From a bacterium (lineage in GTDB: Bacteria; Patescibacteria; JAEDAM01; Absconditabacterales; Absconditicoccaceae): a stretch of DNA of 8,514 nucleotides. Shown piece by piece: positions 1 through 8,514 of this stretch (position 1 is the first letter of the stretch; the number at the start of each line of letters is the position of its first letter). The translations under genes and the position numbers were made by a program. The stretch is taken from positions 1 to 8,514 of the forward strand of contig JAUMYK010000018.1 of NCBI GenBank assembly GCA_030528665.1, read 5' to 3'. Under the pieces are notes generated by a model. That model was not told the DNA's origin and did no database searches. It was given only the letters and a program-made list of their open reading frames with translations.

Positions 1-37
1 ATTATAGCTCTTATTAGCTAGTAATCGCTATCCAATA

Positions 38-373
38 TTACTTCTTCTTGATTCCCAAGAGCATATTTACTCCAGAGAGAACCAAAGCAAATAGAGCAGT
101 ACCAAAAAATCCTCCTGTGCTAAATCCAGGCACTATTGAAGAAGCGAGTTGGATCATAAAAACTGAAATGATAAATGAAACAAGTCCTAATGTCATCCAG
201 TTAAGTGGCAAAGTAAGTAAGCGAAGAATACTTCCAATAAAAGCATTAACCAGACAAATCATCACCCCAGCAATAATCGCAACTCACAAGGATTCTACTT
301 CCACACTAGGTACAAGCCAGGCTGCGATTGAAATTGCGATTCCGCTGAGGATAAGTTTGAGCATGAAGTTCAT
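38..373 (-). CDS. YvlD / phage holin family 4-like small membrane protein (UGA=Gly)
   Basis: A 111-residue integral membrane protein. The sequence is almost wholly hydrophobic, with about four membrane segments (roughly residues 4-21, 31-50, 62-81 and 86-106) and a KKK tail. It has two similar halves: WLVP (19-22) followed by VN (42-43), and SSIVPGF (78-84) followed by VN (102-103). LLTLPLN (52-58) followed by LGL is typical of the YvlD family (phage_holin_4_2, DUF360), whose biochemical role is poorly defined; some members are linked to envelope stress. The frame crosses one UGA (284-286, residue 30), which the standard code would read as a stop, leaving only the C-terminal part. I chose ATG at 371-373 because it precedes the first membrane segment and sits about 22 nt downstream of the expected transcript start. 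The stop is TAA (38-40). It stands alone and is divergent from the large gene on the other strand. The family call is strong; the function is not known. Confidence 0.85.
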
Positions 374-401
374 CGTGTTGTAGATACCAAATAAACACCT
401 T

Positions 402-429
402 ATTATACTACTGAGGTGGGAGAATGCAA
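402..429 (-). promoter_or_regulatory. Candidate sigma70-type promoter of the YvlD-like gene
   Basis: On the minus strand a perfect TATAAT -10 box (402-407) lies 16 nt downstream of a weak -35 box, TTGCAT (424-429). Transcription would start near position 395, leaving a leader of about 22 nt before the ATG at 373. The -10 box is the main support. Confidence 0.5.
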
Positions 430-484
430 GTTGTTTTGCAAAGAAGAAAATTATAATTCAAAAAGCACCATTAAGTGATACGAT

Positions 485-508
485 AAAAGTCTGATTTTTT
501 TGACTTTT
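485..508. repeat. Inverted repeat over the -35 box, possible operator
   Basis: AAAAGTC (485-491) and GACTTTT (502-508) form perfect 7-bp arms separated by 10 nt. The right arm overlaps the TTGACT -35 element of the rightward promoter. This placement would suit a repressor site, but the arms are AT-rich and short, so it may be chance. Confidence 0.3.
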
Positions 509-528
509 TTGCCTGTTGTGGCTATAAT
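500..528 (+). promoter_or_regulatory. Near-consensus sigma70-type promoter for the large rightward gene
   Basis: TTGACT (500-505) is followed, after an exact 17-nt spacer, by a perfect TATAAT (523-528). Transcription should start near 535, about 28 nt before the ATG at 563. Because the -35 TTG falls at the start of the open frame, 500 can be mistaken for a TTG start codon. The promoter shows that translation begins further down. Confidence 0.8.
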
Positions 529-562
529 TGAGATAAGGAATTTTATATCAGATCCAGGACCA

Positions 563-2893
563 ATGAGTACGAATGAGCTAAATATTAGAGTAGAAGCAAG
601 TGAAGGAACTATTCCTGCTATTGACAATCAGCTAGAATCAACCAAACAGCTCACAAAAAATTTTCAGTCTGAGGCAGCGATCTTTGAATCTGAAGTCAAG
701 CTTTCTCAGCTCGATAGTGAGGCAAAAAAGCAGCAGATCGATGTCTTGAGAAATTTGGATTTAAGTAAAGAAAAAAATCTGATGTTGGCGATCGATCAGC
801 TGATGATCATCTATAAAGACTTCAAAAAAAGTTCTGGTTTGCGAGCGAGAATTAATTTTTTGGATAAAATCAATTATACTCCAGATTCCAAGCCTGCACT
901 CAAGCGTATTCATCAGCAGTCTAAAGTCCGTCTCTCTCAGCTCAAATCGATGAAAGCAGGACTCAAGACACAAACCTCAATTCCAAGAAGCTATATGGCA
1001 GAAGTGATGAAAATGGTCAAGGATATTGATGCTTTTAATGAAACCCTTGCTCGTGCGAGGATGGGAGAAAATGCTCCTGCAAATATCAGAAATGCTGATC
1101 ATTCAATTCGTGGGATCAAAAAGAATATTCGCTATGAAAAAGAGCAACAAAACTATTTCAAAAAACAGTTACCTCTACAGATAGAGAGTGCTATTAGGCA
1201 ATTGGATATCCAAGATAAGGAGGGAGTCAGAGATTATTTGATTGCTGTGGAGGAGGGGAGAATTACCCATCCCAGTCAGGATCCTTACTTTTTTAAACAT
1301 AAGGCGGATATCCTCTATCTCTGCTGTCTCAATGCTCAGCTAGGGCAAAAAGTTTTGCAACTTCATAAACTCGTTGGTATTTCTCGTAAAGATCTTGGAA
1401 AATATCGAAGTCAGCTCAATCCTGCAGTACAAAATGCCTTTGTAGGACCTAATCAGGTCTATATGCCAGCAGTGAACTCAAGTTTTGATCTTCAGTCAGT
1501 ACCTCCTCAGCAATTGGGTGGCTTGCGTGGACTCTTGAGAACTGGGATCGATAAAATCACCCCAAAGATGACTCCTCATCAAAAGGAAATGTGGGCTCAG
1601 GGTGCAGAACTTGCGATCTTGGGAGTGGGGATATTTCAGCTTGGAAAATGGTTCTTTGGCAAGGATAAGGATGGGAACAAGAATTTTTGGTCAAAATTGG
1701 GAACCGCAGGTGCAGTACTCTTAGGAGGACAGTTTGCATCGCAGGCCTTTTTAGGAAAGGATTTGGGTTCTGTGTTCAAGGCTGCAGTCAATGGAGGACA
1801 GGAATGGAATTCGATGACCAAAAATTTTAAACTCAGCTCCAATCCTCAGAAAATCGATCAAATGGTCGTGCAACCTCAACATGCGATGTACCTCTATGCA
1901 GGGATGACACCACGTGAAGTGTATGACCTCCTTAAAATGGATCCTCAGTCACAGATCTATGAGACCCTTGAAGCAAGGTACAAAGCTGATACTTCTCCCA
2001 ACGGAAAGACCGCATATGAAATCCTCAAAAAAATTGACAAACATCAGCCAAAAGCACAGTTGGAAGCTTCTTTGAACGCACTCCTTCCTGCTGGGAAAAT
2101 CCCAGAATCGCAAATGGATACGCAGATTGATGTCTTGACAACTGTGTATGCCAACAATATGGCAGCAGTTAATGCTTATCTTGATCAGCATCCGCACCTG
2201 GAGTACAACAAGGAAAAAGAGGAAGAAATCCTGAATACTCTCAAGGCAAACACTGAACTCAAAGGCAAAGATATGGATGCACTCGTGCAGGCAGGATTTT
2301 TCAAGGTACAAGAAAAATATGATACTAAATTCTGATCGCAGATCGATGCATTATCTCTTCCTGCAGGGGAAAAACTCGCTTTTCGTGAGGGATTTCGTGC
2401 TTTGCAGGAAAATGCATCACTCAAAGACCTCGATATCCAGATTAGTGGTAACCAGCTCACTTTGCTTGCCAATGGACAGAACATCATCCTCGATCTCCAG
2501 CAAAAAACGATTGATGGCTTCCTTGATGCTGCTAATGCACCAATCCGTTTTGCCTCTCCACAAGAACTCTTGAAAACCGCTGCACTGATCAATACGATCA
2601 GATCGGATGATGGACTCTGGGAAGAAGTTCCTGATGTCCTCAAAAAAACTGACAAAGACTATCCTTTTGCACTAGCGGAGGGCTGGACCACACTCTGGTC
2701 AAAAAATATCATCTTCAAAAAGCATGATGGTAATCAGACCGTTATCAGTGATCTCTTGCCTTGGATAAGCCAAATGGACTGGCAATTCCCAACGATTGAA
2801 AAGAAAGAAAATAGGAACTTTTTTGTCAATTATCTCAATACCCTCTGGAAAAATGATCATCCAGATTGGAATAAATCTTCAGACTCTCAATAA
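563..2893 (+). CDS. Large helical protein of unknown function with two central hydrophobic segments (UGA=Gly)
   Basis: I do not recognise this 776-residue protein. Residues about 1-300 are rich in Q, K, E, L and S and look largely helical, with coiled-coil-like stretches near 8-60 and 180-215 and no signal peptide. Two apolar segments follow at about 350-365 (LAILGVGIFQLGKWFF) and 380-398 (GTAGAVLLGGQFASQAFLG), joined by a short charged linker with DKDGN; they could be a membrane hairpin. The remaining ~375 residues are mixed and soluble-looking, with a DWNKSSDSQ tail. A single UGA at 2333-2335 (residue 591) lies in one unbroken frame with the last 185 residues, so the two standard-code pieces are one gene. 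The start is ATG at 563, downstream of a strong promoter; AGGA lies only 3 nt before it. The end is TAA. A lipoprotein gene follows after 47 nt and may be co-transcribed. A scaffold or envelope-spanning role is only a guess. Confidence 0.8.
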
Positions 2894-2905
2894 AGAAAAA
2901 AAAAG

Positions 2906-2934
2906 TTAGAAAACAGATTTTATCCTCTTATGCT
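2906..2934 (+). promoter_or_regulatory. Weak candidate promoter, possibly giving a leaderless mRNA
   Basis: TTAGAA (2906-2911), a 17-nt spacer and TATGCT (2929-2934) resemble a degraded sigma70 promoter. A start about 7 nt after the -10 box would fall on the ATG at 2941 itself, giving a leaderless transcript. The boxes match poorly, so read-through from the upstream gene is equally possible. Confidence 0.25.
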
Positions 2935-2940
2935 CTACCA

Positions 2941-3456
2941 ATGGCGATCAATTACAAAGAAACAGGAAGAAAATTTACCGAGGCGATGAAGAAACTCGCT
3001 CAAGATGCAAAGGTTAAAACTACAACTGCTTTAGCTACGACACTGATGCTTACGAGTTGTGATCGACAGCCGATGACAGGTTCTACTTTTGCTACTGCAA
3101 AATGAGATTTTATCGATGGTACCACGGAAAAACTTATAGCAGAGGCAATAGCAGAGAGAAATATCCTGATAGAATCCTATGAGAGCTATATGCTGATCTA
3201 TGAAAAAGGACAAAAAATCCTTACTCAGCATATTGCAAGTGGTAATGTGAAAGCAGCAGGCAGAGAAACCGAGAGACTTGAGGAGTTGAAGTCTACCATC
3301 AAAAAGACCGAAAAAAAGATCGAATCCCTCGATGATGAGTTGATCGATTTAGAAAAATATAAGATGAAAGGCAAGAAAAACGCTAAAATTCAAGAAGCTT
3401 CTCATAGTGATTCTAAAGCCTGACTCAAGAGGAGAAAATTTAAAAAAATAGATTAA
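2941..3456 (+). CDS. Small coiled-coil lipoprotein of unknown function (two UGA=Gly)
   Basis: A 171-residue predicted lipoprotein. A basic N-terminus leads to a short hydrophobic stretch and the lipobox LTSC, with the lipidated Cys at residue 40. The n-region is long, so translation may really start at the internal ATG at 2986 (residue 16, MKKLAQ), which would put the Cys at 25. After the lipobox come a short linker and an acidic/basic helical region with a likely coiled coil at about 109-140 (ERLEELKSTIKKTEKKIESL). Two in-frame UGA codons are read as Gly: 3103-3105 (residue 55) and 3421-3423 (residue 161). The second is followed by a strongly basic tail, LKRRKFKKID, and TAA at 3454-3456. Under the standard code the lipoprotein would end 15 residues after the Cys. 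It follows the large helical gene by 47 nt and may be its partner. Its stop overlaps that of the convergent queA. The function is unknown. Confidence 0.75.
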
Positions 3457-3483
3457 AAATCTGACTGAGATGGTTTTTTAATC
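3441..3483 (-). terminator. Possible AT-rich terminator hairpin at the convergent stop codons
   Basis: GATTAAAAA (3451-3459) and TTTTTAATC (3475-3483) are perfect 9-bp arms around a 15-nt loop. Read on the minus strand the stem is followed by TATTTTTTTAAA, so it could end queA transcription. The stem is almost all A-T, which makes it weak. It overlaps the stop codons of both convergent genes. Confidence 0.35.
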
Positions 3484-4664
3484 CACATCCCATCGCCAAA
3501 ACTATAAAAGCGATAGCCTTTTTCAATCGCCTCTTGATAGCAGTTCAGGAGGTTTTTTCTTCCCATAAATGCAGCAATCAGCATCAGGAGTGAGGATTTT
3601 GGCAGATGAAAATTGCTGATAAGCTCATCTGTGAGGAGAAAAGAAATCCCAGGTCTGAGAAAGAGTCTCGTATCGATTTTCAGGAGCGTATTCACTATAC
3701 TTGGCGTTTGCTCTGGGATAAATGAAGCGAGATGTTCCTGAGAGATATGTTGACTGAGCTGATCTCGCCAAACGAGGGTCGAATCAGGCAGGGGAGGAGT
3801 CAGCTTTTTCTTTTTTAAAAATTGCCAGATATAGGGTAAAGATTCCAAAAATCTGATCATCGTTGTCCCAATGGGGAGAAAAATTTTGCCCTCCTGTTTT
3901 GCCTCAGCGATCCTCGTTCGTAGCTGATGAGGGATGAGCATTGGCTCGCTATGGAGCTGCTGATCTGAGATGATAGGTTCAAAGACAGGTTTAAAAGTGC
4001 CGAGTCCGACATGCAGGCAGAGATATTCAAAATCAACGCCCTGATGCTCAAGCGCTAAGATGAGTTCTGGACTAAAGTGGAGTGAGGCGGTAGGAGCAGC
4101 TGCGGAGCCGATCTCTTGAGCAAAAAAAGTCTGATACCATACTTCTTTATCCTTGCTATAGTTGATATAGGGAGGTAGTGGCATCTCACCATACTGCTCC
4201 AGCAAAGGCAATATTTCTGCTCCATGCAAGGTAAAAAGCAAGCCATTCTCAGTAAAAGAGAGACTCTCAAACCATACTTCATCACTGAGAAAAATTCTTG
4301 TTCCTGGTCTAAAATTTTTGCTATCGGAGACCAGACATTCAAACTGCTGATCGCCTCTGAGGCTGTAGACAAAGATTTCCCCTTTTGGGAGCCAGATTTT
4401 TTTTCCACTTTTTCTGATGATTTTGGTTTGGTTGAGGGGAATTCTCGCTTTAAAGACCTTGCTCCTATTGAGAAAGAGGAGGTAGCGACTATCAAGATGC
4501 GTTTGGAGGTCTCGAAAATGCTGATGCTGAACGCTGATAGGGGTTTGAGCAGGACTGCAGATCATCAGTTTGGCACTGTGGGCTGGGATACTTGGCATTT
4601 GAGCGATCGCCTCTTGAGGGAGATAATAGTCGTAGTTGGACAAAAGCAAATCAGGATCGAGCAT
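3453..4664 (-). CDS. queA: S-adenosylmethionine:tRNA ribosyltransferase-isomerase
   Basis: QueA transfers and isomerises the ribosyl group of S-adenosylmethionine onto the 7-aminomethyl-7-deazaguanine base at tRNA position 34, forming epoxyqueuosine, the step before queuosine; it acts in the cytoplasm. Family hallmarks are clear: YDYYLPQEAIAQ near the N-terminus, MPLPPYI, GSAAAPTASLHF (from residue 186), LHVGLGTFKPV, QLHSEP, and a C-terminal block with NFHLPKSSLLMLIAAFMG and YRFYSFGDGM. The protein is 403 residues, against about 340-350 for most members. The excess includes a segment at about 275-330, between FLESL and LFLRPG, where the usual protein has only a short linker. The frame contains no UGA. 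It starts at ATG 4662-4664 with no Shine-Dalgarno sequence and ends in TAA. It is the last gene of the tilS operon, 56 nt after the membrane-protein gene, and its stop codon overlaps that of the convergent lipoprotein. Confidence 0.95.
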   Translation of the reverse strand: MLDPDLLLSNYDYYLPQEAIAQMPSIPAHSAKLMICSPAQTPISVQHQHFRDLQTHLDSRYLLFLNRSKVFKARIPLNQTKIIRKSGKKIWLPKGEIFVYSLRGDQQFECLVSDSKNFRPGTRIFLSDEVWFESLSFTENGLLFTLHGAEILPLLEQYGEMPLPPYINYSKDKEVWYQTFFAQEIGSAAAPTASLHFSPELILALEHQGVDFEYLCLHVGLGTFKPVFEPIISDQQLHSEPMLIPHQLRTRIAEAKQEGKIFLPIGTTMIRFLESLPYIWQFLKKKKLTPPLPDSTLVWRDQLSQHISQEHLASFIPEQTPSIVNTLLKIDTRLFLRPGISFLLTDELISNFHLPKSSLLMLIAAFMGRKNLLNCYQEAIEKGYRFYSFGDGMWIKKPSQSDF

Positions 4665-4679
4665 TACAGATCGAGCAAA

Positions 4680-4732
4680 TAAAAAGAAACTCTTGAGAGA
4701 CTATCAGCCTCTATCCTCCTTTAGCTCAAGAG
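4680..4732 (-). terminator. Inverted repeat with T-rich tail between the membrane-protein gene and queA
   Basis: On the minus strand CTCTTGAG (4725-4732) and CTCAAGAG (4690-4697) form perfect 8-bp arms, followed by TTTCTTTTT (4681-4689). The loop is 27 nt, long for an intrinsic terminator. It holds an AGGAGG motif and begins at the TAA of the upstream gene. It could attenuate or process the operon mRNA before queA. Confidence 0.4.
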
Positions 4733-5245
4733 CGTATACAGTCCAAGGGTTGGGATGCTGATTACAGTCTTGAGCAAGCGTTCAAAAAAATGTAGGATAC
4801 GAAAACGCTTACTTTGTCTGAGGAGCTGGGCTTCCTGCTGAGGGCTGATGATTTTGTGTCCAAAAATCTGTTCTACTTTGTGAAGAGTATCAAGGATGAG
4901 AAAATCACTCTTGATGTAGTCGGCATTGCCTTTGGTAAATATGGTCTGGAGTAGTGAGAGATGAGGATTTCCACCAAGAGTCTTGAGATTGATGGAGCTT
5001 TGAGCTTGAGCAAGCGCGGTCAAATAGATCATCTCATCTACTAGAGTTGTGATCTCTTTTTGGAGTCAGATTTTTTTTCTTTTAAGCCATCTATGGAGCG
5101 GAATCAACACTGCCATCAGCAAAAATATCCCTCCCATTACCCAAAGCAAGACTTGAGTTTGAGGAAGAGAAAGTCCAGTGATAAACGAAACTTCTTGCAA
5201 AAATCGTGTCCAAATCTGCATAAGCTGTTCGCGAAACTGAGTCAT
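4721..5245 (-). CDS. Single-pass membrane protein of unknown function (UGA=Gly)
   Basis: A 174-residue protein that I do not recognise. Residues 1-31 look amphipathic. A single strong membrane segment spans about 32-50 (VLLWVMGGIFLLMAVLIPL) and is followed by the basic stop-transfer stretch HRWLKRKK (51-58), which suggests the C-terminal ~115 residues lie in the cytoplasm. That part is soluble-looking and mostly helical. UGA at 5066-5068 (residue 60) falls just after the basic stretch. Under the standard code this gene would appear as two unrelated fragments, a 60-residue membrane anchor and a soluble remainder; both lie in one frame. I prefer ATG at 5245 over TTG at 5260. The gene begins 18 nt after the tilS stop and precedes queA, so the three are probably one transcript. 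No known partner of TilS or QueA is implied beyond the position. Confidence 0.75.
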
Positions 5246-5263
5246 TATGTTATGATCCAAAAG

Positions 5264-6535
5264 TTAAAATATCAAGTGTTGTGGTTTCCATACCATCATA
5301 ATTTTTCCCTCCTTTTCTGCAAGGGGAAGTGTGTTTCTCCAAAAGAGGGGGATTTTTTGATTGATCGCCCATTTGCTGAGTGATTTACCATGAAACTTAT
5401 CTCCTGGTCTGGGAAATCTCAGCTTTGCTCCGATAAGCTCAGCAGGGACTTCGAGCTGAAAAAGTCCAAAAGTCTGCATGCCTTCGGCGAGTATCTCCTT
5501 TTCAAATCTGATCTCCTTTTCCCAAAATGCCTCCTTAGTCGGGAAAAAATAGAAATGCTGATGCGCAATCACGATTTGCCAACTTCCAATATAAAACCTG
5601 CCATCATCGGCTTGTTCGCTCCAGTGGGCAAGCGCTTTGATCTCATCTCAGGTATAGTCGATCCCAAGCCTAGTTAAGAGATTGCTTAAACGGAGTTGGT
5701 TTTTCCATTCAGGCATAACTGCCCATTCATATGCATGGCTAAGTCCTCGATAAGGATTGAGCGGTATCGGTTTGAGAAACTGAAAGGCTTGCGTAGTTTG
5801 TAGCTCTTCTAGATGAGCGTATATCTGGGATCGTGACCAAAAAAAGGTATTCCTCTTTCCTGTTTGCAATGCTTGTTCTGCCAGAGGAAAGAGAAAGGTA
5901 TTTCTGATCAGGTTTCTTTTGCTTGTGGTGGGATCATCGTTGCTCGGGTCGTGGACATAGGGAATATCATACGCTTGGCAGAGAGACTGGATTTGCATCT
6001 TGGTAAGCGAGAGGAGTGGTCTGTAGACCTGCCTTTGCTCGAGAAGATGATGACTTTCTTGTGCTTGCATACCGATAAAGCCTACGATCCCACAGCCACG
6101 GAGCATATTGAGCAGGGTGCCTTCGATCCTATCGGTTAGGTTGTGTCCTGTCAAAAGTATTGCGATATGCTCCTCCTGCATCAGCTGGAGAAACTGCGTA
6201 TATCTTCGCTCTCTCAGGCTTTCTTCGTTGATTTTGATGTCCTCAGTTCTTTCGGAGATTTTGAGCTGATAGCCTGCAAAAAATGAGCGTACAAAGCGAG
6301 CTTCCTCATCACTCTCAGGTCTAACCTTGTGATTGCAATGGATGAAAAAAAGCTGATCAGGATTCCATTTTTTTTGTGTCCAAAAGGTCAGGACTGCACT
6401 ACTCAAGAGCATACTGTCACTCCCTCCAGAGACAGTAATGGCAATTTTTTGCTCTGTAGGAAAAAGTCTGATCAGCTCGCCTAAAAGCTCTGGATGTGTT
6501 GCAAAAAGCTGGGGGATGGATTGGAGATGATGCAT
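5264..6535 (-). CDS. tilS: tRNA(Ile)-lysidine synthase, read through one UGA (Gly)
   Basis: TilS uses ATP to join lysine to C34 of tRNA-Ile(CAU), changing its decoding from AUG to AUA and its charging from Met to Ile. The PP-loop ATP pyrophosphatase motif SGGSDS is at residues 36-41. Other family features are HCNHKVRPESDEEARFVRSF, LTGHNLTDRIEGTLLNMLRGCG, RPLL and SNDDPTTSKRNLIRN. After UGA at 5648-5650 (residue 296) the same frame continues into the C-terminal domain, with RPGDKFHG (376-383) and a typical strand-rich end, finishing at TAA (5264-5266). The full 423 residues suit a long-form TilS. The standard code would remove about 128 C-terminal residues, and family knowledge argues against that loss. 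I chose ATG 6533-6535 because it places the PP-loop at the usual distance; an upstream TTG at 6589 would add an unusual hydrophobic extension. It is the first gene of the leftward operon. Confidence 0.95.
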
Positions 6536-6562
6536 CAGTATCCACAAGAGTAAATAGAGGAA

Positions 6563-6589
6563 GTATAAGGATTTTGCTTGGTTATACAA
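6563..6589 (-). promoter_or_regulatory. Weak candidate promoter of the tilS operon
   Basis: On the minus strand TTATAC (6563-6568) could be a -10 box with TTGTAT (6584-6589) as -35, but the spacer is only 15 nt. The alternative -10 box TATAAC (6581-6586) has no good -35. Either would give a short leader before the ATG at 6535. Confidence 0.22.
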
Positions 6590-6601
6590 GGGAAGAAGGG
6601 C

Positions 6602-6629
6602 TTGACTTTGAGGAGGGAAACACTATGGT
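6602..6629 (+). promoter_or_regulatory. Candidate promoter for the CHAP lipoprotein transcript
   Basis: TTGACT (6602-6607), a 16-nt spacer and TATGGT (6624-6629) resemble a sigma70 promoter; the -35 hexamer is the same as in the strong promoter at 500. The -10 is only a partial match. It overlaps repeat copy 1 and the palindrome. The leader to the ATG at 6788 would be about 150 nt. Confidence 0.3.
6610..6628 (+). repeat. Direct repeat, copy 1 (GAGGAGGGAAA...CTATGG)
   Basis: GAGGAGGGAAACACTATGG matches copy 2 (6694-6713) in the first 11 bases and the last six, with 2-3 unlike bases between. The element has the form of a Shine-Dalgarno sequence 7 nt ahead of an ATG (6625), but that frame closes after three codons (ATG GTC CCA TAG). 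Confidence 0.55.
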
Positions 6630-6637
6630 CCCATAGT
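6622..6637. repeat. Palindrome ACTATGG-TC-CCATAGT
   Basis: Perfect 7-bp arms with a 2-nt centre. The left arm is the end of repeat copy 1, and the palindrome contains the candidate -10 box. The short centre suits a dimeric DNA-binding protein better than an RNA hairpin. A further CTATGG stands alone at 6659-6664. Confidence 0.4.
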
Positions 6638-6693
6638 CAATAATAAAAACAAAAATGCCTATGGACTAAGAAATGTTGCTTTTTGTCTCCTGG

Positions 6694-6713
6694 GAGGAGG
6701 GAAAAGGCTATGG
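6694..6713 (+). repeat. Direct repeat, copy 2 (GAGGAGGGAAA...CTATGG)
   Basis: GAGGAGGGAAAAGGCTATGG, 84 nt downstream of copy 1. GGAGGG lies 8 nt before an ATG (6710), an ideal ribosome-binding spacing, and this one opens a 15-codon frame. None of the main genes whose starts are visible has such a strong ribosome-binding sequence. Confidence 0.55.
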
Positions 6714-6757
6714 ATCAAAAATACGCCAGAACATCAAGTATTTTGAAAAAAAAATAA
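6710..6757 (+). CDS. Possible 15-codon leader peptide
   Basis: ATG at 6710 follows a strong GGAGGG at 8-nt spacing and opens a frame for MDQKYARTSSILKKK, ending in TAA 30 nt before the CHAP lipoprotein start. It has no long run of one regulatory amino acid and no obvious paired attenuator hairpins, so a leader-peptide role is speculative. The ribosome-binding sequence is the only real support. Confidence 0.22.
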   Translation: MDQKYARTSSILKKK

Positions 6758-6787
6758 ATACAATAAAAATCAAAAAAATTAAAAACA

Positions 6788-7834
6788 ATGACAACAAAAA
6801 AAATGTTAAAGCTTAAGGGAATGATCAAATCCCTTGTATTCATCAGCCTAAGTGCTGGAATCTTGCAATCTTGTAACAAACTCGAGGATTCCTCGCTGCC
6901 AGAAGCAACTCATAATGCAGATTTAGCCGCTCTAGACTCTTCATCCTTTGAAAGTGATGAAGTCATGGAAGGCTCGCTGACTAGGAGACCCAATCAGGAT
7001 ATTACGAATCCCTCTTGGACACCTGGTAACTATGATCCTATCGTAGCACTCAACTATCAAATCCGCTCTCCTCAGAAAATCAAAGGAGATACCTATCGAT
7101 TTGTTGTGACCTCAAAAAATTTTGCTCGTAAGCATATCTATATCAGATATAATTCTCCTCAGGGAAACGAAGTATTTGAGCAAATGCGACCAAATTTGAG
7201 CTATAGTTCTTTTGAGGTTCAGCGAAGATTCCAACAGGAAGGGGTCTATCATATTCGATTTTACGTGGAATCCACAGGGTCAGTTCTTCCTTATCCACGA
7301 ATTCATCAAAATAGTTATACGATCAATGTAGAACTGCCGGTGAATGTGCCCACGGCTGTTAATGATTATTTCAACTATATGAGGATTGTAGGTAGGGATG
7401 GAAGTAATGGAAGAGATTATGAACAGTGGGGGTTCTTTACAAAAGAATGTGTAAGTTGGGTTGCTCACAAAGTAAATCGAATGTGGAATACTGACAAAGA
7501 CTTTTCAAATAGAATGTTTGCTGGAACACGGCTTAGTACAGCAAGATATTGGAAAAGTAGATTTGTGCAGAATGGCTATCGTGTTGATAAAACGCCCAAA
7601 CCTGGAGCTATCATTTGGTGGGGGGCTAATCCAAATCTCATTAAGGAGTGGGACGGTAGTCTACGGGCAAGAGGAAGCGGTCATGTAGGATTTGTCCACA
7701 AGGTAGAAAATGGGATTGTGTATTATTCAGACTACAATGGAGATGGAAATCATCAATACAATGGAAATCGACAGATAAGAGTTCAGGATATTCGATTAGC
7801 TGAGTTTATTCATGTTCAACGAAAATTACATTAA
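6788..7834 (+). CDS. Lipoprotein with C-terminal CHAP peptidoglycan-hydrolase domain
   Basis: A 348-residue predicted surface lipoprotein. Residues 1-29 form a lipoprotein signal: basic start, hydrophobic core and LQSC, with the lipidated Cys at 29. Residues about 30-75 are an acidic, Ser-rich linker. Residues about 78-190 have the alternating pattern of a beta-sandwich, perhaps a wall-binding domain; I cannot name it. The C-terminal ~130 residues match CHAP (cysteine, histidine-dependent amidohydrolase/peptidase): KECVSWVA with catalytic Cys221, then KPGAIIWW, GHVGFVHKV with catalytic His299, and YYSDYNGDG, which supplies the probable third polar residue. CHAP enzymes cut amide bonds in peptidoglycan. 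There is no UGA in the frame. It starts at ATG 6788 after an A-rich leader with no Shine-Dalgarno sequence, ends in TAA and is followed at once by a terminator. It may remodel the cell's own wall or act on a neighbouring cell. The domain call is firm; the target is inference. Confidence 0.88.
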   Translation: MTTKKMLKLKGMIKSLVFISLSAGILQSCNKLEDSSLPEATHNADLAALDSSSFESDEVMEGSLTRRPNQDITNPSWTPGNYDPIVALNYQIRSPQKIKGDTYRFVVTSKNFARKHIYIRYNSPQGNEVFEQMRPNLSYSSFEVQRRFQQEGVYHIRFYVESTGSVLPYPRIHQNSYTINVELPVNVPTAVNDYFNYMRIVGRDGSNGRDYEQWGFFTKECVSWVAHKVNRMWNTDKDFSNRMFAGTRLSTARYWKSRFVQNGYRVDKTPKPGAIIWWGANPNLIKEWDGSLRARGSGHVGFVHKVENGIVYYSDYNGDGNHQYNGNRQIRVQDIRLAEFIHVQRKLH

Positions 7835-7840
7835 TTCAAA

Positions 7841-7873
7841 AAAAGCTCCTTAGGTTTTTCCTAGGGAGTTTTT
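7841..7873 (+). terminator. Intrinsic terminator, probably bidirectional
   Basis: CTCCTTAGG (7846-7854) pairs with CCTAGGGAG (7860-7868) through nine pairs including one G-U, around a TTTTT loop. TTTTT follows on the right and AAAAAAA precedes on the left, so it works in both directions. It lies 11 nt after the CHAP gene stop, and its right arm contains the TAG stop of the convergent gene. Confidence 0.88.
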
Positions 7874-8514
7874 GCTAAAGGTATTTCACAGGTTTCAATT
7901 TGAAAGTTCCCAATCACTATGCTGTTGTTTTTGGTTGTTTGTTCCAATATATCCCAATCCAAACTATCTCGCTGTGACTTAAAAGGCTCTAGTAAAGTGC
8001 CATTTATCCATCTTTTTACAATAAACACATTCTTTTGTACATCAAAAATACTTCGTCTTGTCTGAATGGTCGTTTGAGTATATGGATCCTCAATTCAGAT
8101 GCCTTGATCATAGAGTTGATGGTCAAGAATAAAAAAGAATCCATCTTCATTTGTTCTATATCCATACAAGAAAAAATGCCCGTTCTTTTCTCCTCGAGGA
8201 TGAGTAACTAATTGCTTACATGCTTTACTATCTCCATCACAGTTTATATCCCACAGCTGGTCTTTATTAGTCTGTACTGCATCTATATAATGTCATTCGT
8301 TGATATGGTGCTTGTCCAAAAAAGCAAGCAATTCTCAGTAGGTATCGAGCGGAAGTGTGTATCTCATATTTCCCTGATGATTTATACAAAAAGGCTGTTG
8401 TCACTCAGCTCCATAATGAGAAACAGCACCAGTGGAAAGTAAAAAAATGCTATCAATGCCTCCTCATCCTCCTCAAATGAAAGAGTAATACATATCATGT
8501 GTGGTATATGTACA
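7861..8514 (-). CDS. UGA-rich gene of unknown function, N-terminus outside the window
   Basis: An unbroken minus-strand frame runs from the window edge to TAG at 7861-7863, giving 217 visible residues if UGA is Gly. It contains six in-frame UGA codons (8473, 8464, 8401, 8335, 8293 and 8095 are their lower coordinates), so the standard code hides it completely. The visible part begins within or after the N-terminus and soon has six successive glycines (codons TGA GGA GGA TGA GGA GGC), preceded by MYYSFI and followed by IDSIFLLSTG. Then come mixed stretches with DINCDGDSKACKQ, aromatic-rich segments such as GHFFLYGY and DGFFFILD, and a C-terminal part with VFIVKRWING. Scattered cysteines and the Gly tract would suit a secreted or pilin-like surface protein, but I cannot assign a family. 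An internal ATG at 8493 is possible but the frame stays open upstream. It converges on the CHAP lipoprotein gene. Confidence 0.7.

Follow-up and report, generated by a model that had tools for sequence, protein, structure and literature searches.

A recoded Absconditabacteria chromosome segment in which UGA is a rare sense codon, very probably glycine, and CGA mostly behaves as tryptophan

The 8,514-nt stretch of DNA analysed here (contig JAUMYK010000018.1, hereafter the window, to which all coordinates refer) carries eight genes in which UGA is a sense codon. We consider the results best explained, with a probability of about 0.85, by the Absconditabacteria genetic code, in which UGA encodes glycine, CGA and CGG encode tryptophan and UAA and UAG are the stops, with UGA having become a second-class codon in this lineage and one gene, encoding a CHAP-domain protein, having been imported. 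Judged by its sequence, the window is chromosomal DNA from an uncultured lineage of Absconditabacteria (SR1) lying inside the recoded clade. PMC8629427 (Shulgina and Eddy 2021) credits UGA as glycine (NCBI code 25) in SR1 and Gracilibacteria to Campbell 2013 and Rinke 2013 and itself describes CGA and CGG as tryptophan in Absconditabacteria, which PMC13092985 restates; both reassignments are thus already known for the group, and the window is a further case, a new member of this published recoding. The eight genes, to which the residue calls below are relative, are the following.

38..373, minus strand: YvlD-like membrane protein (PF04020, 8.8e-25); TGA at 284-286 (codon 30)
563..2893, plus strand: 776-aa protein, no family over cut-off; TGA at 2333-2335; CGA at 842-844 and 1406-1408
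2941..3456, plus strand: 171-aa lipoprotein-like gene; TGA at 3103-3105 and 3421-3423; CGA at 3064-3066
3453..4664, minus strand: QueA (PF02547, 1.5e-89); no TGA; CGA at 4512-4514 (not tryptophan-like), 3918-3920 and 3765-3767 (both in tryptophan-like columns)
4721..5260, minus strand: 179-aa protein beside TilS; TGA at 5066-5068; CGA at 5204-5206
5264..6589, minus strand: TilS (PP-loop, PF01171, 1.2e-37); TGA at 5648-5650; CGA at 6206-6208, 5831-5833 and 5747-5749, all three in tryptophan-like columns
6788..7834, plus strand: CHAP-domain lipoprotein-like gene (PF05257, 6.4e-11); no TGA; 9 CGA and 2 CGG
7861..8514, minus strand: last gene, the 3' part of a longer gene crossing the window edge; 6 TGA at 8473-8475, 8464-8466, 8401-8403, 8335-8337, 8293-8295 and 8095-8097; CGA at 8194-8196, 8053-8055 and 7969-7971, standing opposite Y/W, W/CGG and F/F in its two homologs in the relative G001 (L120, L121)

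An earlier sequence-only reading of this DNA had counted twelve in-frame UGA codons in six genes, and a recount over all eight genes gave exactly this number: one each in the YvlD-like, 776-aa, 179-aa and TilS genes, two in the 171-aa gene and six in the last gene, with none in QueA or the CHAP gene. A thirteenth TGA (476) falls in frame only if the 776-aa gene is started at GTG 416; the ATG at 563 was adopted. The claim that all eight stops are TAA or TAG was borne out as well: seven genes end in TAA and one in TAG, none ends in TGA, and no TAA or TAG is found inside any gene. In two genes the open frame by itself is too long for chance, a run without TAA or TAG having a probability of approximately 1e-8 over the 776 codons and of 3e-5 over TilS; for YvlD, at 0.07, and the other three, at 0.006-0.02, homology weighs more. 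Homology to relatives spans UGA sites in all six UGA-bearing genes: the Pfam match of YvlD covers residues 1-105 with the UGA at 30, and the matches to relatives extend over 17-179 in the 179-aa gene, 353-767 in the 776-aa gene and 45-162 in the 171-aa gene, the second UGA of which (161) lies barely within. Since no gene ends in TGA and homology crosses TGA in all six, UGA is a sense codon in the window. Annotation with the standard code (table 11) cuts the UGA genes, as had been predicted, and the public proteins from the same contig are likewise shortened, P0002 covering TilS for 295 aa and P0083 covering YvlD for 78 aa.

Relatives were obtained with a TilS alignment, a search with which gave 33 loci, of which 13 carry a title naming SR1, Absconditabacteria or Gracilibacteria, while QueA alone as a query against genome contigs gave no match; one TilS homolog is labelled Candidatus Absconditabacterales. 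QueA was found in 51 of the 99 relatives of G001, and in a QueA tree of the window and 30 relatives, with TGA, CGA and CGG masked, the window clusters with G001, G002 and G025 with a support of 100/100. The neighbourhood is shared too: G002 has the 776-aa gene (to which partial homologs occur in several relatives, G001 and G002 among them), the 171-aa gene and QueA in the order seen in the window, G001 has the 776-aa and 171-aa genes side by side, and the 179-aa gene adjoins TilS in G001, G002, G010 and others.

The residue encoded by UGA can be read clearly in these relatives, for which QueA and TilS columns were scored with ambiguous codons masked. In all 45 recoded genomes tested, UGA scores higher as glycine than as tryptophan, by +73.6 nats in G001 (23 sites) and +105.0 nats in G002 (33 sites), and glycine is the best-scoring residue in 38 of them, another residue beating it in G003, G004, G007, G016, G018, G019 and G023. 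A tRNA-UCA with G1:C72, C2:G71, G3:C70 and U73, positions which are glycine identity elements according to PMC8629427, is carried by G001, G002 and G010. Matches to this tRNA gene of at least 81 bits were obtained in 42 of 99 genomes, all within G001-G048, with four further genomes matching at 52 bits or less, and the gene is present in 39 of the 45 relatives (of G001-G048) with in-frame TGA in QueA or TilS. A search for release factor 2 (RF2) with the prfB model gave no result over the cut-off in any of 36 relatives with in-frame TGA and a result over it in 20 of 23 other searched genomes; two of the three without, G062 and G071, have in-frame TGA. Kinship thus makes UGA very probably glycine in the window organism, given the codon columns of the relatives, their tRNA-Gly(UCA) and the missing RF2; there it would be read by a tRNA-Gly with anticodon UCA, as in the nearest genomes, and RF2, not observed in the recoded relatives, would also be absent.

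The window's own sites give no such decision. None of the 11 testable UGA codons lies in a conserved glycine column and one, that of YvlD, lies in a tryptophan column, no tryptophan being found in any other UGA column; opposite the TilS UGA, 30 rows of relatives (one gene entered twice) have T9 K7 S6 Q4 E2 A1 L1. One UGA of the last gene lies within a glycine-rich run and is aligned with a UGA of G001. TilS and YvlD had been proposed as independent homology checks, and both genes do continue across the UGA, but the YvlD codon stands in a tryptophan column and the two checks therefore show that UGA is sense, not that it is glycine; YvlD was dropped as proof of glycine, its UGA column being mixed for tryptophan and glycine. 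With the window sites undecided and the relatives clear, the assignment of glycine made in the sequence-only reading is very likely right, but its support comes from kin.

Code 25 was correct as regards UGA as a sense codon, very likely glycine, and UAA and UAG as stops, but it is incomplete because CGA behaves as tryptophan as well. The window contains 22 CGA and 2 CGG codons. Opposite the six CGA codons of QueA and TilS, the unambiguous residues include 29 F, 25 W, 13 M, 8 Y, 8 A, 7 S and 1 R, and opposite AGA they include 343 R and 0 W; tryptophan is the best residue for the six CGA codons, at +22.5 nats over arginine, with one of the six favouring arginine. Outside the CHAP gene, tryptophan is favoured at nine of 11 testable CGA sites (sum +33 nats), namely QueA 249 and 300, TilS 128, 253 and 281, codon 19 of the 179-aa gene, whose column (5204-5206) has three W and one CGA among nine relatives, and the three of the last gene; two further CGA codons outside the CHAP gene have no aligned relative. 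With the exception of G095, all 41 recoded genomes that contain CGA favour tryptophan over arginine for it, by +51.1 nats in G001 and +43.2 nats in G002, and G025 also reads it as tryptophan, while arginine is favoured (-3.5 to -10.2) in the standard-code G052, G057 and G086 and in the UGA-recoded G095. The tRNA-CCG and tRNA-UCG of G001 and G002, inspected by eye, have G73, A1 or G1 opposite U72 and no A20, which are tryptophan elements according to PMC8629427; both genomes also carry ordinary tRNA-Arg with anticodons GCG, UCU and CCU. By analogy, CGA and CGG in the window organism would be read by a tRNA-UCG and a tRNA-CCG of tryptophan identity. The sole two CGG codons of the window are both in the CHAP gene, one leaning to arginine (-0.69) and one to tryptophan (+0.74); a possible CGG reversion in Gracilibacteria is mentioned in PMC8629427.

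As CGA is tryptophan, code-25 translation keeps wrong residues: it leaves CGA and CGG as arginine, which misfits most CGA codons of QueA, TilS, the 179-aa gene and the last gene. Database genes of the group are wrong under code 11, 4 or 25; in addition to UGA, CGA has been reassigned and, according to the publications, CGG as well. Among the public proteins of the clade (TilS homologs P0003-P0029), many show W where the column is glycine and R where it is tryptophan, which is what code 4 would give for UGA and the standard code for CGA, and many residues in the databases are accordingly wrong.

The CHAP gene departs from this use of CGA. It contains 11 of the 24 CGA and CGG codons of the window in 348 of 2,639 codons, versus 13 in the 2,291 elsewhere (P = 9e-5). 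For scoring its columns, the R and W letters of metagenome homologs were removed as ambiguous, and only other residues were used, because the closest TilS homologs likewise show few R at tryptophan positions (P0001 W11 R0, P0003 W8 R2, P0004 W9 R0). This comparison also weakened a separate argument, that the CHAP homologs are unrecoded since they have 0 R and 46 W at their tryptophan positions. The CGR columns of the gene (10 sites, mean -0.67) are like its other arginine columns (13 sites, -0.49) and unlike its TGG columns (3 sites, +0.37); site 231 has Q8 E1 V1 and site 345 has K6 E1 D2, with site 293 the single tryptophan-leaning site of 11. The gene, which is flanked by recoded ones, was probably acquired from an organism in which CGA is arginine and seems not yet to have been recoded. 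In a recoded cell it would carry tryptophan for arginine unless decoding is mixed, and it is a candidate for following the fate of a standard-code gene inside a recoded genome.

A distant CHAP gene in G002 (L161 1006-1938), with 0 UGA among 25 glycines beside an open reading frame with 26 of 33, would be another CHAP gene left unrecoded while its genome is recoded, and we think that CHAP-type genes enter from standard-code bacteria and await recoding. Code-11-compatible phages of such bacteria are described in PMC10746230; a search of viral contigs gave no relative of the CHAP gene or of the last gene, and the phage records searched gave no match to window positions 1-8000 or to the CHAP gene. 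By eye, the first ~160 residues of the CHAP protein are nearly identical in P0071-P0074 and the C-terminal part differs, and the predicted N-terminus of P0074 resembles translated window DNA upstream of the gene.

Compared with the Absconditabacteria code as published, the window is alike in its sense UGA and in CGA being tryptophan-like at most resident sites, as are its nearest genomes in their tRNA-Gly(UCA) and tryptophan-type tRNA-UCG and tRNA-CCG and the recoded relatives in having no prfB over the cut-off. It differs in the CHAP gene, which keeps CGA and CGG at arginine-like positions, and in the rarity of UGA. Only one of the 40 glycines of QueA and TilS is encoded by UGA, versus 56 of 72 in G001 and G002 together (P = 5e-16), and the UGA share in these genes is higher than that of the window in each of the 41 recoded relatives for which over 300 codons were available, the lowest being 0.14. 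Among these 41 the share drops as GC rises (Spearman -0.54), and in the three relatives with a GC of at least 0.40 it is still 0.21-0.46. Half of the twelve UGA codons of the window are in the last gene, where they encode 6 of 21 glycines versus 6 of 136 elsewhere (P = 0.0015). In most of its genes the lineage has all but given up UGA, with a milder trend clade-wide.

The remaining UGA codons are also unusual in position. Their glycine score sums to -9.7 versus a mean of 6.8 (SD 4.3) for matched GGN sites of the same genes, with approximately 0.0001 of 20,000 draws this low, and a second scheme, in which relatives were translated in their own code, gave -6.0 versus 12.0, likewise 0.0001. For these window genes, UGA is kept out of conserved glycine positions. 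In 29 of 43 recoded genomes with enough sites UGA stands at less conserved glycines than GGN, and the deficit grows with the rarity of UGA (Spearman 0.54, P = 1.6e-4), from a UGA-minus-GGN mean of 0.00 in 18 genomes with a share of at least 0.5 to -0.71 nats in 14 genomes with a share below 0.30, the 43 genomes compared being related to each other and giving small counts per genome. We interpret UGA-glycine as a codon of lower fidelity that is displaced from important positions in GC-richer lineages; in the lineage of the window it would be a rare, second-class glycine codon, its scarcity likely resulting from higher GC together with selection for accurate glycine decoding. A neutral origin may also account for the pattern, with new UGA-glycines arising at variable sites, UGA being one step from tryptophan, arginine, cysteine, serine and leucine codons.

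More tentatively, and less likely than not, the stop-to-glycine reassignment may itself be retreating here, UGA being rare, of low fidelity and cleared by selection from conserved glycines, at the extreme of a clade-wide gradient along which the positions that UGA takes in proteins vary with its frequency of use. If this were true, the reassignment of a stop codon would have been caught mid-course in partly reversing, leaving UGA free for loss or for recapture, the YvlD site being a tryptophan position. The near-loss of UGA in most genes, with the remainder at unimportant positions, provides a natural experiment on the quality of a reassigned stop as a codon and on the reversibility of such a change. 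In the titles and abstract openings of the papers screened there was no account of a UGA retreat or of unrecoded imports in this group.

A number of results weigh against the explanation preferred here and must be set against other possibilities. The tRNA-UCG of G010 can be folded in two ways, and the tRNA-UCA search was unmatched in six of the 45 recoded relatives and gave no match in G062, G071, G088 and G095, which have in-frame TGA in QueA. If the code were plain code 25, with UGA glycine and CGA and CGG still arginine, as the sequence-only reading assumed, this would account for the arginine-favouring CGA codons at QueA 51, where the residues of three solved QueA are R, R and K, and at codon 282 of the 776-aa gene, and for the CHAP columns, which favour arginine over tryptophan by 7.6 nats (11 sites); the combination occurs in G095 (L068), where UGA behaves as glycine and CGA as arginine and where the tRNA(UCA) of Absconditabacteria gave no match. 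However, the nine CGA codons of QueA, TilS, the 179-aa gene and the last gene favour tryptophan, W exceeds R by 25 to 1 opposite CGA in QueA and TilS, with 0 W and 343 R opposite AGA, and the nearest genomes, G001, G002 and G025, read CGA as tryptophan; we regard plain code 25 as improbable. Slightly more improbable, in our view, is that UGA has become tryptophan in this lineage by a code 4-like second change after glycine. Code 4 resembles the window in having UGA as sense, and the YvlD UGA stands in a tryptophan column, opposite TGG, CGA, ACC, TGG and ATT in five relatives, three of these being TGG or CGA, with W in six of eight close homologs. The UGA columns of the window do not separate the two residues, the difference of glycine minus tryptophan being -1.1 nats with lysine on top (11 sites, ambiguous codons masked) or +3.0 (12 sites, relatives in their own code), and glycine positions have been almost vacated by UGA, whose sites are far less glycine-like than the GGN sites described above.

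Against tryptophan stand the preference for glycine in all 45 recoded relatives, sister genomes included, with UGA at glycine columns and a glycine-type tRNA(UCA), the hydrophilic or small residues, without tryptophan, in most UGA columns of the window, and the UGA in the glycine-rich run of the last gene; the W letters of metagenome proteins may, furthermore, be UGA read by code 4. The sequence-only reading had named conserved tryptophan at UGA together with a tRNA-Trp(UCA) as what would speak for code 4: the former was seen at YvlD, and the latter was not seen in G001, G002 and G010. That UGA is still a stop, the six genes being pseudogenes, shortened or misassembled, is hardly credible: its rarity and its weakly conserved positions would fit, but six genes would have to be broken together despite homology on both sides, the 217 codons of the last one containing six stops, every one of the eight genes ends in UAA or UAG, and no prfB over the cut-off was found in the 36 recoded relatives. 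The Absconditabacteria code with a second-class UGA and an imported CHAP gene thus remains the preferred reading.

Some minor features of the window can be added. No tRNA was found in it by ARAGORN and no Rfam family over cut-off. Judged by eye, the true start of TilS is probably the ATG at 6536-6538, and the start at 8493 in the last gene is not real because the gene continues past 8514. QueA has an insertion of ~40 residues at residues ~276-330 as compared with solved QueA (query 275-331 versus 266-280 in 1wdi); CGA codon 300 lies inside it, at a site where a residue is present in 23 of 30 relatives.

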